From: Pseudobdellovibrionaceae bacterium
GTDB taxonomy: Bacteria > Bdellovibrionota > Bdellovibrionia > Bdellovibrionales > Bdellovibrionaceae
Length of the DNA stretch: 64,000 nucleotides
Reading direction: 5' to 3'
Assembly: GCA_021731025.1 (NCBI GenBank)
Contig: JAKFYD010000008.1
Location: 1 to 64,000, forward strand
The notes under the pieces are model-generated. The model saw nothing but the letters and a program-made list of their open reading frames with translations, did not search any database and was not told the origin of the DNA. Below are positions 17,313-40,269 of the stretch, one piece after another. A program made the translations under genes and the position numbers. Position 1 is the stretch's first letter, and each line of letters opens with the position of its first letter.

Positions 17313-17957
17313 TCAGACGAACTGAATTACATCATTCTTATCAAAGCGAACTTTTTTATTTCCCTGCGATTTATCTTCAGCACTTCGATAACCTAAGGCA
17401 ACGGCGGCAATCGTCTCGTAACCAGAATCCTGCAAATTCAATATCTGATCGTAAGTGTTGGGCTCAATTCCCTCTAATGGACAGGTATCAATACTCATCA
17501 GAGCTGCGGTTTCCATCAAGAAACCCATCGCGATATAAGCTTGGCGGTGAGTCCACCATTTGATGACTTCACGGCGTGGTCCATGAATCACGTCACCCAT
17601 AATACTTTTCTTGAAGCCAGCCAGAGATTCCATAGTGACCGAACGCACTTGGGAAATCCTTTCAAGAAACCTTTCGATATCTTTTTCAATAATGTCCGTG
17701 CGAGTGGTGAAGACCACAAAATGAGAACAATCTTCCACTTGGCTTTGTCGCCACGAAGCCTCACGCAATTTTTTGCGGACTTCGGGATTTTGCACGATAA
17801 AGAATTTCCAGGGTTGAAGACCGTAGGAAGAAGGTGCAAGCAACAAACTTTGCTCGAGCACTTCCCAATCTGCCGCGGAAATTTTTTTACTGGCGTCGAA
17901 GCGTTTCACCGCATAACGCCAGTTCAATTGTTTAAGAATGTCTTCGTTTTTGAACAA
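17313..17957 (-). CDS. Nitroreductase-family NAD(P)H:FMN oxidoreductase
   Basis: A 214-residue flavoenzyme of the NfsB/nitroreductase fold. The N-terminal R-Y-A-V-K-R-F-D motif, the L-A-P-S-S-Y-G-L-Q-P-W-K-F-F segment that cups FMN, and the late A-A-V-A-L-G-Y-R-S-A-E-D signature are present. Members reduce nitroaromatics, quinones or enones with NAD(P)H; the physiological substrate is not predictable. The gene lies three bases downstream of the fibronectin-III gene on the same strand and probably shares its transcript. A 233-residue open frame on the opposite strand is a shadow of these two genes. Confidence 0.88.
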   Translation of the reverse strand: MFKNEDILKQLNWRYAVKRFDASKKISAADWEVLEQSLLLAPSSYGLQPWKFFIVQNPEVRKKLREASWRQSQVEDCSHFVVFTTRTDIIEKDIERFLERISQVRSVTMESLAGFKKSIMGDVIHGPRREVIKWWTHRQAYIAMGFLMETAALMSIDTCPLEGIEPNTYDQILNLQDSGYETIAAVALGYRSAEDKSQGNKKVRFDKNDVIQFV

Positions 17958-17960
17958 GAA

Positions 17961-18395
17961 TTACTTTTCCGCAGTTTCAAACATGGATTTGGCGTAATTG
18001 CCTTTGATGGTGCCTCTCATGTTTTCGGGTTTAACGGCGGCGACTCTCCAGTAATAGTGTTTTCCTGTTTGCAAACCTTTCAATTGGAAGCTGGTTCCGT
18101 TGTAAAGCTTCTCATCCACGGCAAGCCATTTGTAAACGGGATCGGTGGCCACTTGCACGTGATAGGTTTGAACCCCTTCAACAGGAGTCCATTTCAAAGT
18201 CACTTCACTTCCGGAAATTTTATTCATGAAAGCGGGCTCTGAAAGGCTTGGAGTCTCTGGGGGTGTCGCCAAAGCTTTATTATGGGGCTTGGGTGGAAAC
18301 AAGGCTCCATTATCGCGATGACCTTCTTTGGCCAAGGATTGCATGGAAACAACAGTGAATAAGGTAAAGACGAGAATGCTAACTAAAATTTTCAT
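17961..18395 (-). CDS. Small secreted fibronectin type III protein
   Basis: A 144-residue exported protein. A signal peptide of about 22 residues (ending S-L-A) is followed by a short Pro/Ala linker and a single fibronectin type III domain of about 85 residues. The V-T-L-K-W-T-P-V-E-G-V-Q-T-Y-H-V-Q-V-A core and the G-K-H-Y-Y-W-R-V-A motif show this fold. It has no catalytic domain, so a binding or structural role outside the cytoplasm is likely. It is upstream of the nitroreductase with a three-base gap. Confidence 0.82.
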   Translation of the reverse strand: MKILVSILVFTLFTVVSMQSLAKEGHRDNGALFPPKPHNKALATPPETPSLSEPAFMNKISGSEVTLKWTPVEGVQTYHVQVATDPVYKWLAVDEKLYNGTSFQLKGLQTGKHYYWRVAAVKPENMRGTIKGNYAKSMFETAEK

Positions 18396-18536: not shown

Positions 18537-18912
18537 GCGGTTTCGTGGATGACTGCTTTAAAACTTTGCAAAAAGGATTAAAGAGGAAAGTCCGGACTTC
18601 ATCGGGCAGCGCAAGGGGTAACGCCCCTCGGTAGTAATGCTAGGAACAGTGGAACAGAGAGAATGTCCAGGGCTACGATCCTAAAAACGGGAACGGGAGT
18701 TTTTAGGGGAGCCGCTGGAGTGAAAACAGCTAAACTCTGCGTGAAGCAAGATCAAATAGGAGAGCGTTTAAGTGTGGCCCACACTTTGGCTTTCGGGTCA
18801 GATCGCTAGAGGGTGAGGGTGACCTCACTCCCAGAGAAATGGTCATCTAAGTTTATCAAGCGACTTTTGGGACTTGGTGAACGGGACAGAATCCGGCTTA
18901 AAGCGAAACCGA
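18537..18912 (+). ncRNA. rnpB: RNase P RNA, bacterial type A
   Basis: The catalytic RNA of RNase P, which removes 5' leaders from pre-tRNA. Universal blocks are readable: GAGGAAAGTCCGGAC at 18583-18597 (CR I), AGGAACAGTGGAACAGAGAG near 18642, and ACAGAATCCGGCTTA at 18886-18900 (CR V). The last pairs with CR I to make helix P4. Ends are set by helix P1, where 18538-18545 pairs perfectly with 18904-18911. Length of about 375 bases is normal for type A. A terminator follows. A 60-residue open frame inside it is not a gene. Confidence 0.93.
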
Positions 18913-18947
18913 AAATCCCAGCAAGACTGCAAAGTCTTGATGTTGTG

Positions 18948-31916: not shown

Positions 31917-32844
31917 TTCCAAAGTCCAAATTGTTGAAATGGGTTTGCGCGATGGACTTCAAAATGAAAAAGTTATTTTGAGTGCTGATCAGCGAGCGGA
32001 ATTAGCTTTGCGTTTATCCCGCGCAGGAATGAATCGCATCGAAATCGGAGCCTTTGTTCGTCCCGATAAAATTCCGCAAATGGCGGGTACAGCAGAAGTT
32101 ATTCAAAAAGTTCAGCAGTTGGTGCAGCAAAAAAATATTTCTGCAAAAACTGAATTTTCTGTGTTGGTGCCCAATGAAAAGGGAATGCAATCAGCTTTGG
32201 CGGCTGGAGTTCGCGAAATTGCGATCTTTGCTTCAGCGACGGAATCGTTTTCACAAAAAAATATCAATTGCAGTATCAAGGAAAGCTTTCAGAGATTTAT
32301 GCCTGTCTTGCCCCTTGCGAAGAAAAATAAAATCAAAGTGCGAGCCTACTTGAGTGTGTGCTTTGGTTGCCCCTACGAGGGCGCAGTCCCTGAAAAGCGA
32401 GTGGTCGAACTGGTAAAGCGTTTTCATAAGCTCGGCGTTTATGAAATTTCCATTGGTGACACCATTGGAGTTGCGACTCCAGGTCAAATTAAATCTTTGA
32501 TCCAAAAACTGAAGCGAGTTGTGCCTGCACGCAAAATTGCGGGACATTTTCACGACACTCGCGGGATGGCTTTGGTTAATATTTTGGCTGCCTATCAGTT
32601 GGGTATTCGCATTTTCGACACAAGCATTGGTGGCCTGGGTGGCTGTCCTTACGCCCCCGGCGCTTCGGGGAATGTGGCTACCGAGGACGTGCTTTATATG
32701 TTTGAAGGTATGGGTGTGAAAACAGGAATTAATTTAGATCAACTTATTGAAACTCATAAATGGTTGTCGGGAGTGATGGGTAAAACTTTGCCTTCAAGAG
32801 TTGGCAATGTGGGGCGGTTGCAAGCCCGCGGTCCTGTTACTTAA
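31909..32844 (+). CDS. Hydroxymethylglutaryl-CoA lyase
   Basis: A 311-residue TIM-barrel lyase that splits HMG-CoA into acetyl-CoA and acetoacetate, the last step of leucine catabolism. Seen: E-M-G-L-R-D-G-L-Q-N-E near the start, S-V-C-F-G-C-P-Y-E-G, G-D-T-I-G-V-A-T-P, H-F-H-D-T-R-G-M-A and the catalytic loop G-L-G-G-C-P-Y-A-P-G-A-S-G-N-V-A-T-E-D. Metal-binding His and the catalytic Cys are all present. The start at 31909 overlaps the BCCP gene. The operon lacks the isovaleryl-CoA dehydrogenase, which is not in this window. Confidence 0.9.
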   Translation: MASSKVQIVEMGLRDGLQNEKVILSADQRAELALRLSRAGMNRIEIGAFVRPDKIPQMAGTAEVIQKVQQLVQQKNISAKTEFSVLVPNEKGMQSALAAGVREIAIFASATESFSQKNINCSIKESFQRFMPVLPLAKKNKIKVRAYLSVCFGCPYEGAVPEKRVVELVKRFHKLGVYEISIGDTIGVATPGQIKSLIQKLKRVVPARKIAGHFHDTRGMALVNILAAYQLGIRIFDTSIGGLGGCPYAPGASGNVATEDVLYMFEGMGVKTGINLDQLIETHKWLSGVMGKTLPSRVGNVGRLQARGPVT

Positions 32845-32862: not shown

Positions 32863-33295
32863 TTAAACCCACTGATCCACATACCTGTGATGTTGTTGAC
32901 AGAGAAGTCTGAGATTTTCTTCGGTGGTTTTCCCGCCTTTTGAAATTGGAACTCGGTGATCAATCTGGAGTAAGTGCTTGGATTCGCATCGGTGTTTTGT
33001 TTGTAAGTGTGTATAAGTGCATTGATAGTTATCCCGCTTAAAAATTCTTTGCTTAAGCTGAGCTGAGATATATCTTGGGTTTTTATGAGCTCTTAGGCTT
33101 TTAATTTGATCGAGTTTTTTTAAGGTATCTTTTGAAAGGTTCACGTGAAGCGCGGCTTCTTCGCTTGAAGTAAATCTGAGGGATTCTTTTGGTTTAATTT
33201 TATTTGGAAAATGCGTGGCTAATATCTCTTTCACTTCTCGTTTAGAGCAATTTTCCATTTCTTTAAGAACTTCTTTTTTCTTTTCAGGAGTTGCG
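32863..33295 (-). pseudogene. HNH endonuclease, 3' part, cut by an IS
   Basis: The C-terminal part of an HNH endonuclease-like gene split by the insertion at 33296-34563. The HNH motif is L-Q-I-D-H-R-V-P-I-S, E-E-N-L-R-L-L-C-Q-Q-H-H. An apparent start upstream at 33393 lies in IS sequence and is spurious. Joining this to the 34564-34862 part, keeping one 9-bp target copy, gives an open frame of about 240 residues through S-A-T-P-E-K-K-K-E-V. The family has N-terminal helical and C-terminal HNH domains and occurs in several copies in Bdellovibrio genomes. Confidence 0.85.
33287..33295. repeat. Target-site duplication, left copy
   Basis: GGAGTTGCG directly precedes the left inverted repeat and recurs at 34564-34572. 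A 9-bp duplication fits several IS4-family groups. Confidence 0.93.
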
Positions 33296-33325
33296 CACTG
33301 CTGTCCGGTTGGCTTAGGGGTTGTG

Positions 33326-34468
33326 TTACTGAGTGAAAAGGGCCGAGGGTGGGTGTTTGGAGTTGTCGCTGCCAGGAAATCCAATCGGAGCAATGATTTG
33401 ATGATACATCGTTGTTCTGAGCTTTCTTAGAAACTCCCAAAGGGTTCCGTTAAATTGAGTAAGGATTTTTTCAAGCTGCAGAAGAAGTTGAGTTAAAACA
33501 AGCATCGCGGCATGGATTTTCACTGTATTTGGATTTCTTAAATCAAGCACTCTGAGATGCAGGTGACCTTTTAACCAACGAAACAAAAGCTCAACAGACC
33601 AGCGTCTTTTATAGATATCTGCAATCTCTTGAGCCGGTCTTTTCCAATCTGATGTGAGAAAATCAAAGAGCTTTTTTGAAACTGGATCTCGGTAAATAAT
33701 ATGACGAAAGCAGACTTGGTTTTTGGGTTTAATGTTTGCACGGTAACACGTGGCTTCTGATGCGAGCCACTTTCTTTCCATAATGACACCGTCTTTTTTT
33801 AAATCATCTTCGTTAAGAACTTGAGCGTGAATCGCACTAAGGCGTAAAGTTTTTTTAGCTCTAATGACAAAGTCAGCCTGAGCTTTTTGAATAATTAACC
33901 AAAATTTTAAATCCACATAAGCACGGTCTCCAACATAGATTTTCCCTGGAGAAAGTTCAAAACTCTTTGCCGTGGTTAAATCAGAGGCATTCCCATAAGT
34001 TGTTCGAAAATCTTCAATCCACTCACCTTCAATATTCCAGGCGACATGGAGTTTAAGTGAGGCACATTTGTTTTTTGATTTCTTCCAGCCTTTAAAATTT
34101 AACAAATGCCCATGAACCCGGGCCTCGGTTGAATCAATTGCAACTAAAGGCTTTAGAAGCTTTTTTAATCTTGAATTTTTAGACTCCGTTAAAACTTTTT
34201 TAGCAACTTCGTGAACAAGTTCTTCAAAAAATCCTGCCGATCTTTTCTTTAAAGCATCAGCTAGAGTTGATTTTGGCACATCAAAAACATCTTGCATCTC
34301 ACGTAGTGAATGAAGACGTAAAATAAATGACTGCAGTAAAATCTTAATGAGTTTCGTTGTTGAAAGGCGTCGAATATTTTTATCTACACCCCATTTTTTA
34401 ATGAGCCTATTTAAAATTTCTACCGGAATAAGTTGTGAAAGGTCTTGGTGCACGTTAAACTTTTTCAT
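33326..34468 (-). CDS. IS4-family DDE transposase
   Basis: A 380-residue transposase from ATG 34468, chosen because AGGAGA lies a few bases upstream; the longer frame to 34525 runs through the leader hairpin. The DDE residues are in V-A-I-D-S-T, V-G-D-R-A-Y-V-D and Y-K-R-R-W-S-V-E-L-L-F-R-W-L-K (the YREK box of IS4). The N-terminal 100 residues hold a DNA-binding helical domain. It cuts and rejoins DNA at the terminal repeats. The frame appears uninterrupted, so the element may be active. Confidence 0.92.
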   Translation of the reverse strand: MKKFNVHQDLSQLIPVEILNRLIKKWGVDKNIRRLSTTKLIKILLQSFILRLHSLREMQDVFDVPKSTLADALKKRSAGFFEELVHEVAKKVLTESKNSRLKKLLKPLVAIDSTEARVHGHLLNFKGWKKSKNKCASLKLHVAWNIEGEWIEDFRTTYGNASDLTTAKSFELSPGKIYVGDRAYVDLKFWLIIQKAQADFVIRAKKTLRLSAIHAQVLNEDDLKKDGVIMERKWLASEATCYRANIKPKNQVCFRHIIYRDPVSKKLFDFLTSDWKRPAQEIADIYKRRWSVELLFRWLKGHLHLRVLDLRNPNTVKIHAAMLVLTQLLLQLEKILTQFNGTLWEFLRKLRTTMYHQIIAPIGFPGSDNSKHPPSALFTQ

Positions 34469-34528
34469 AGTTGCATCTCCTACAGTTGTCGCAAACCTAG
34501 GATAAGGCCCTTCGGGGCCATGCAACTA
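34468..34528 (-). promoter_or_regulatory. Leader inverted repeat covering the transposase start
   Basis: TAGTTGCAT at 34468-34476 and its complement at 34520-34528 flank a strong inner hairpin (34506-34510 with 34515-34519, loop TTCG on the plus strand). In an RNA read into the IS from outside, these pairs can hide the ribosome site and start codon. This kind of read-through protection is known in IS10 and IS50. Confidence 0.6.
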
Positions 34529-34563
34529 CTTGTTTTTTATCTAAAATCTACCGGACAGCAGTG

Positions 34564-34572
34564 GGAGTTGCG
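34564..34572. repeat. Target-site duplication, right copy
   Basis: GGAGTTGCG follows the right inverted repeat directly, identical to 33287-33295. Confidence 0.93.
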
Positions 34573-34862
34573 CTGGAGATTAAGCTATGCGCCATAGAGA
34601 GTGTCGTTAAATTTAAGCTTCCGCTATCAAGCTTTTCTTTGATTTCGGGAAGCTCTTTTGCCATTTCCACCACAGCAAGTCTTCGGTAAGCACAGTGCTC
34701 TGAATAGCCAAGAGCTTTTATACAGTACTGATAAAGATTTGCATAACCCATTTCAAGATAAAGCCCTGTATCAAAGTTCTTTTGCAGGTTATTTATTACA
34801 AGACTTGTAAACCGGCTTTCTTCTTTAACAAAGAACACTGTTTCTTCGTGTAGATTCATCAC
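34564..34862 (-). pseudogene. HNH endonuclease, 5' part, cut by an IS
   Basis: The first 100 residues of the split endonuclease gene, entirely helical (L-Y-Q-Y-C-I-K-A-L-G-Y-S-E-H-C-A-Y-R-R-L, then E-L-P-E-I-K-E-K-L). This is the N-terminal domain seen in Bdellovibrio HNH endonucleases. It begins at GTG 34862 or ATG 34859, with AGGAGGTG a few bases upstream. In its present form the frame runs into IS DNA and stops after T-A-V-R. The C-terminal HNH domain is at 32863-33295. Confidence 0.85.
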
Positions 34863-35102
34863 TTCACCTCCTAGTGAAAAAACTTATATCATAGGTTTTT
34901 CAGAGGTAAATGAGTAGCAATTGAAAGGCCAGTCTCAAAACATTTTTAAACGTACACAATAGGTCAACACTCAATGATCATAAACAAAATCATGTTTTTA
35001 AAATTAGAGATAAAACTCACGCAACCAGGCTCAAAATAAAACTTAAAAAATCACGTCAATAAAATTCTTGTAGAAGTTAACTTTTTTCTTTAATCTTTAA
35101 GC

Positions 35103-35444
35103 ATGTCATTTCTAATTAGTCTTCTGCTTATCCTCTCCCCACAACATTCATTTCCTGCAAATCAATCTCCTTCAGAATTCAATGCTCCTTGGATAAGCAC
35201 AGAGACTTCGATTGTCATCGACGCCTACGAGAGAAATTCAATCAATTGGGAAAGTATGGCCACAGACCCTCGGGTTGTAGCAGTTATTCATCGTTGTTCG
35301 ATCGGATTAAAAAGGGATACCGCTTACTCTGAACGCAAGAAAATAGCTCAACAAAACGGATACCTTTGGGGAGCCTACCATCTTGGTAAGGCAGGTGATC
35401 CCTATAAAGCTTACAATAATTTCGATCTAAAACTCGACCAATAA
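35103..35444 (+). pseudogene. Truncated GH25 (lysozyme)-like secreted protein
   Basis: A 113-residue frame with a signal peptide and the first half of a glycoside hydrolase family 25-like domain: I-V-I-D-A-Y-E-R-N-S-I-N-W-E-S-M, then G-Y-L-W-G-A-Y-H-L-G. The whole domain needs about 190 residues, but the frame stops at 35444 after N-N-F-D-L-K-L-D-Q, and no continuation is seen in other frames. The catalytic acidic residues from the later half are missing. It is probably a decayed lysozyme gene near the IS. Confidence 0.55.
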
Positions 35445-39984: not shown

Positions 39985-40269
39985 ATGAAGATCAAATTTT
40001 TAATTCTAATCACTGCCACATTGGCAGCACTTTTCTCTCATGCAGAAAAGCGAGAGAGATATTCAGTCACAGGTACTGCTGAAGATACCGGATTTGCCTA
40101 TGAATCTACAATCTGCAGTTGGGCAACAACCAATGCTCAATCCAAAGCTTCGCAGGTTTGTTTTGAAGAAGGTTTTAACAATGGATGGACTCATGCGAGC
40201 TACGGTGAATGCAGTAACCGTTTGTTCAGTTCCGATAAGAAAATTAAAATGACCTTTTATTGCTATTAA
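39985..40269 (+). CDS. Small secreted Cys-containing protein, related to its upstream neighbour
   Basis: A 94-residue exported protein with signal peptide ending S-H-A. Cysteines stand at I-C-S-W, V-C-F-E, E-C-S-N and the C-terminal T-F-Y-C-Y, probably forming two disulfides. The ending M-T-F-Y-C-Y and the helix N-A-Q-S-K-A-S-Q-V-C echo the 156-residue protein, so both may descend from one fold. GAAAGGAAAATTT precedes the ATG. A similar ribosome-site sequence recurs after its stop codon (see findings). Confidence 0.7.
   Translation: MKIKFLILITATLAALFSHAEKRERYSVTGTAEDTGFAYESTICSWATTNAQSKASQVCFEEGFNNGWTHASYGECSNRLFSSDKKIKMTFYCY

Follow-up and report, generated by a model that had tools for sequence, protein, structure and literature searches.

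An IS4Sa-type insertion sequence within one copy of a dispersed HNH gene family in a Pseudobdellovibrionaceae bacterium

The window, a stretch of 64,000 nucleotides from a Pseudobdellovibrionaceae genome, carries an HNH-endonuclease gene (HNH gene below) that is now split by an insertion sequence (Table 1), while its paralogue on contig C12 of the same genome is whole. We are almost certain that this arrangement arose when a single IS4Sa-type element entered a 9-bp target, which was duplicated, inside one copy of a duplicated two-domain HNH gene. Chance origin of the matched ends and target copies is excluded and the route, judging from the family of the element, would have been cut-and-paste DDE transposition. 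The interrupted gene is itself a copy of a dispersed, multi-copy HNH family.

Table 1. Coordinates of the insertion sequence and of the interrupted HNH gene in the window.
Feature	Position	Strand	Basis
IS4Sa-type insertion sequence, 1268 bp	33296..34563	-	perfect ends and 9-bp target duplication; single genome match
Terminal inverted repeat CACTGCTGTCCGGT, 14 bp	33296..33309	+	near-identical ends in relative
Terminal inverted repeat, other end, 14 bp	34550..34563	-	perfect complement of the first
Target-site duplication GGAGTTGCG, first copy	33287..33295	.	exact; single copy in uninterrupted C12 paralogue
Target-site duplication GGAGTTGCG, second copy	34564..34572	.	exact, 9 bp
IS4 transposase, 399 aa from first TTG, internal ATG after; DDE and YREK	33326..34525	-	
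5' half of interrupted HNH gene, N-terminal domain	34573..34859	-	91-93% identical residues, C12 paralogue/joined query
3' half of interrupted HNH gene, HNH domain	32863..33295	-	PF01844 in joined protein; aligns to C12 gene
Upstream segment common to C12 paralogue	34860..35066	-	alignment
Junction of 34-codon in-frame deletion relative to C12 paralogue	33074..33085	-	12-bp repeat TAAAAACCC(T/A)AG, present twice in C12

The two ends of the element are 100% complementary across 14 nucleotides, and the exact 9-bp target duplication agrees with the value of about 10 bp expected for the IS4 family. As is also expected of that family, the transposase reading frame is open over its 399 amino acids with no frameshift. 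The protein scored 157.6 bits against the NCBIfam model NF033592 (transpos_IS4_1; cut-off 115) and 93.7 bits against Pfam DDE_Tnp_1; it contains the complete Y-(2)-R-(3)-E-(6)-K signature (YKRRWSVELLFRWLK, residue 305), and the aspartates of its DDE set lie in AIDST and GDRAY. Family model and motif agree with an earlier note on this DNA, which had described an IS4-family element with perfect ends and exact target copies and had judged, correctly as far as the frame can be read, that the transposase looks intact. Members of the IS4Sa subgroup have ends of the form CA------T, lengths of 1150-1750 bp and target duplications of 8-10 bp (De Palmenaer et al. 2008, PMC2266710). With CACTGCTGT, 1268 bp and a 9-bp duplication our element agrees on all three points, and by its ends, length and duplication it appears to fit this subgroup.

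The element shares with IS4Sa the complete YREK motif, the DDE residues, the single unshifted transposase frame, and a CA start with T at position 9. It differs in that its sequence is new: the closest transposase among 369 genomes of the phylum, in genome G323, is 42% identical, and the ends of that relative, TACTGCTGTCCGGT and TACTGCTGTCCGGC, are almost those of our element. The best-ranked plasmid relatives of the transposase are 28-30% identical. They include ISRel1 (IS4-like, from Rhizobium etli according to the annotation of the plasmid match), which also belongs to the IS4 family and whose transposase aligned over 94% of the length, but at 28% identity; this comparison concerns the transposases alone. 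Genome G020, from the same family of bacteria, has only fragments of relatives of the element, and a peptide-pattern search of the genome contigs for named transposase relatives returned none. Within its own 3.49-Mb, 81-contig genome the element is present in one copy; the 14-mer end has no further exact match there and one site with a single mismatch. GGAGTTGCG is also present at 32467, within the gene next door, and this third occurrence was put down to chance (64 kb should hold ∼0.24 per strand). The element adds one more member to an IS subgroup already described, and its insertion is an ordinary one.

Deleting positions 33296-34572 in silico, that is, the element with one target copy, leaves a single minus-strand frame of 239 amino acids that runs through SSATPEKKKEV, as the earlier note had predicted, and the joined protein matches PF01844 with 35.0 bits (gathering score 21.4). 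The uninterrupted paralogue (L048:6229-7056) has 275 residues from a GTG or 274 from the next ATG; its DNA identity to the window gene is 89% in a first stretch, made up of the 200 bp upstream and the beginning of the gene, and 87% where the HNH domain is encoded. It contains exactly one CGCAACTCC, at the equivalent point; frame and flanking sequence agree with those of the window copy. It thus preserves the empty site, the paralogue standing in for the empty state of the window copy. The two halves are one gene because the C12 paralogue runs through both. Alignment of the joined gene to an uninterrupted copy, proposed earlier as a check, was thus possible within the genome and confirmed both the single gene and the 9 bp duplicated; origin of the halves from different families was tested and is not the case, since both align to the C12 gene.

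Over 239 comparable codons the window gene and the C12 paralogue differ by 48 synonymous and 16 nonsynonymous changes (12/9/53 differences by codon position), and neither half of the window gene has a stop or a frameshift. When polarised by outgroup G046 on two of three rows (L078, read in a wrong frame, was left out), the changes between the paralogues do not accumulate preferentially in the window copy. Because the target copies are identical, the ends perfect, the halves undecayed and the differences mostly at third positions, the sequence supports a recent insertion in relative terms, as had been thought probable. We also observed that the insertion creates a frame of 176 amino acids (32863-33393, minus strand), which begins at a TTG within the IS and continues into the HNH half; in principle this frame could give a separate HNH-domain protein.

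We compared the locus with that of one congener, G001, in which ∼14 bp separate mvaB from the counterpart of the 35488 gene; the HNH gene, the IS and an ORF at 35103-35444 are therefore extra in the window genome. The HNH gene probably reached this site after the split from the G001 lineage, the alternative being loss in G001. There is no nucleotide-level empty site in G001, where the gene is absent and the DNA is 65-70% identical in aligned pieces. The ORF at 35103-35444 (plus strand, 113 aa), absent between the two congener genes, resembles by eye a truncated lysozyme-type (GH25-like) protein. Elsewhere in the window a bacterial class A RNase P RNA gave a full-length Rfam match (18537-18916, plus strand), and the ORF called across this RNA (17541-18242) is probably no gene.

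The C12 paralogue also bears on the state of the gene before the insertion. It has two copies of TAAAAACCC(T/A)AG 102 bp apart, whereas the window gene has one copy and the 102 bp are gone, leaving it 34 codons shorter with the frame kept. From the 12-bp direct repeat we infer replication slippage as the cause of this loss. Across 74 homologous ORFs drawn from this genome and from other genomes of the order, the segment that links the N-terminal domain to the HNH domain measures 42-209 residues (median 61). The C12 protein has 55 residues there and the window copy 21, half the shortest length among the homologues. By this measure the joined frame is open yet shortened, in a segment that 74/74 homologues keep. 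The earlier description of an intact protein of about 240 residues therefore holds for the length and openness of the frame but not for its being intact, and the claim that the gene was whole before insertion is not supported. When the IS came, the window copy had either been shortened already or was still full length and lost the segment after the insertion. That it was already a defective deletion derivative, for which the insertion changed little or nothing, is a serious possibility that falls somewhat short of an even chance: it has lost what all other copies retain and the genome also has a whole paralogue, but it contains neither a stop nor a frameshift and no surplus of amino-acid changes, and either order of deletion and insertion fits the sequence. 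We entertain more tentatively that a whole, functional gene of about 240 residues stood here until its recent interruption, the short linker being a tolerated variant. The deletion being in frame and the absence of decay in the HNH and N-terminal parts, with changes not concentrated in this copy, are in its favor, but the linker minimum in the homologues is double that of the window copy.

Two further readings are very improbable. The exact target copies and restorable frame could suggest that the IS reversibly switches the HNH gene on and off through precise excision; however, the same would hold for every fresh insertion that duplicates its target, so that restoration of the frame, pointed out in the earlier note, is simple arithmetic and no evidence of excision. 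Precise excision could in principle reverse the insertion, but nothing here shows such reversal, no excised allele was seen and the restored gene would still be 34 codons short. An assembly artefact, in which two HNH copies or the IS were wrongly joined, might be considered for a draft genome in 81 contigs with a paralogue elsewhere that is 87-91% identical (the range for gene plus upstream DNA), and is just as hard to credit: the IS is single-copy and lies within a contig of 122,667 bases, misassembly does not make exact target copies and perfect ends, and the genes on either side are arranged as in the congener.

The HNH family falls into subfamilies, one of which holds the window copy (32863-35066) and its C12 paralogue (L048:6023-7056) and another, here called B, 13 copies in the same genome (L059-L071). 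Homology among the B copies starts ∼235 bp 5' of the start codon and ends within the last few codons, and for the latter reason their C-termini differ. At codon positions 1, 2 and 3 the 13 copies have mean pairwise identities of 0.894, 0.943 and 0.677; their 5' noncoding part, at 0.808, lies above the value for third positions. The tree of the subfamily is star-like, with dominant end branches. By these measures the 13 copies are under strong purifying selection, and because the codon-position identities are combined with a star-like tree, each copy seems to have been maintained by selection after dispersal. Almost all B copies are preceded by an upstream gene in the same direction. At L069 the HNH unit lies in a division gene cluster, murB-[HNH]-ftsQ-ftsA, while in G001 and G009 (L134, L135) murB adjoins ftsQ with no HNH unit between; G001, a genome 81% complete, has no HNH match.

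HNH match places in relatives range from 0 to about 60 per genome. The Bdellovibrionales genome G055 has ∼40 (L074-L100), some of them flanked by dispersed repeats of 80-110 bp with palindromes such as TTTGCCCTTCGGGCAAA. The 13E12-type (DUF222 plus HNH) repeats of actinobacteria are likewise dispersed and multi-copy, and their proteins have a helical region at the N-terminus and an HNH domain at the C-terminus. In these features the HNH family resembles the 13E12-type repeats, from which it differs in belonging to a different phylum and in being without DUF222: no DUF222 match was obtained in the joined protein (E<1) or in three subfamily representatives (E<0.1). A partial literature search found no paper on these HNH families in Bdellovibrio.

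The 5' segment gave 13 strong matches in the genome, all at HNH genes, and never occurs without the gene. No convincing RNA structure was found in it (folding z-scores of -0.39, for one copy, and 0.22), and its consensus fold is weak at -13.4 kcal/mol with a covariation term of only -1.06. We considered an IscB/omega-RNA reading of the segment and rejected it on the lack of an Rfam match, the z-scores near zero and the weak covariation; the IscB model itself gave 27.5 bits, far below its cut-off of 175, and in the HNH region only.

With ≤3 mismatches allowed, a 23-bp palindromic repeat, TTTACTGCCANNGTGGCAGTGGA, occupies 33 places in this genome, e.g. L130:1472 and L131:1557, and is absent from seven relatives. 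Thirteen of the 33 places are inside HNH genes, namely in all 13 genes of the B subfamily, and a looser form is directly upstream of nine of the 13 units. Several of the other places that we examined lie between convergent genes and are terminator-like, and a shorter form was noticed in the window at 40012-40027. Selection on the palindrome at the DNA level within the HNH genes was not supported, third-position conservation there ranking 37th of 243 windows, and no comparable palindrome was seen inside the HNH genes of other genomes. The repeat may serve as a target or as a regulator, or may be no more than a bystander.

For insertion sequences the gain is one further IS4Sa element with a clean empty-site comparison, and understanding of such elements is unchanged. 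As a pointer the insertion is of more value, since the gene it hit belongs to a dispersed, strongly conserved HNH family. We regard it as unlikely, though worth stating, that the Bdellovibrionales harbor an undescribed dispersed unit made up of a 5' noncoding segment of ∼200-240 bp and an HNH gene, intergenic, present in a dozen or more copies and kept by selection at each site; such a unit would usually settle with the same orientation as the gene upstream of it and would here be linked to the 23-bp palindrome, which is also found in intergenic, terminator-like places. If this were true, it could represent an HNH-driven mobile unit, or a many-copy family with a role for the host, e.g. in defence.
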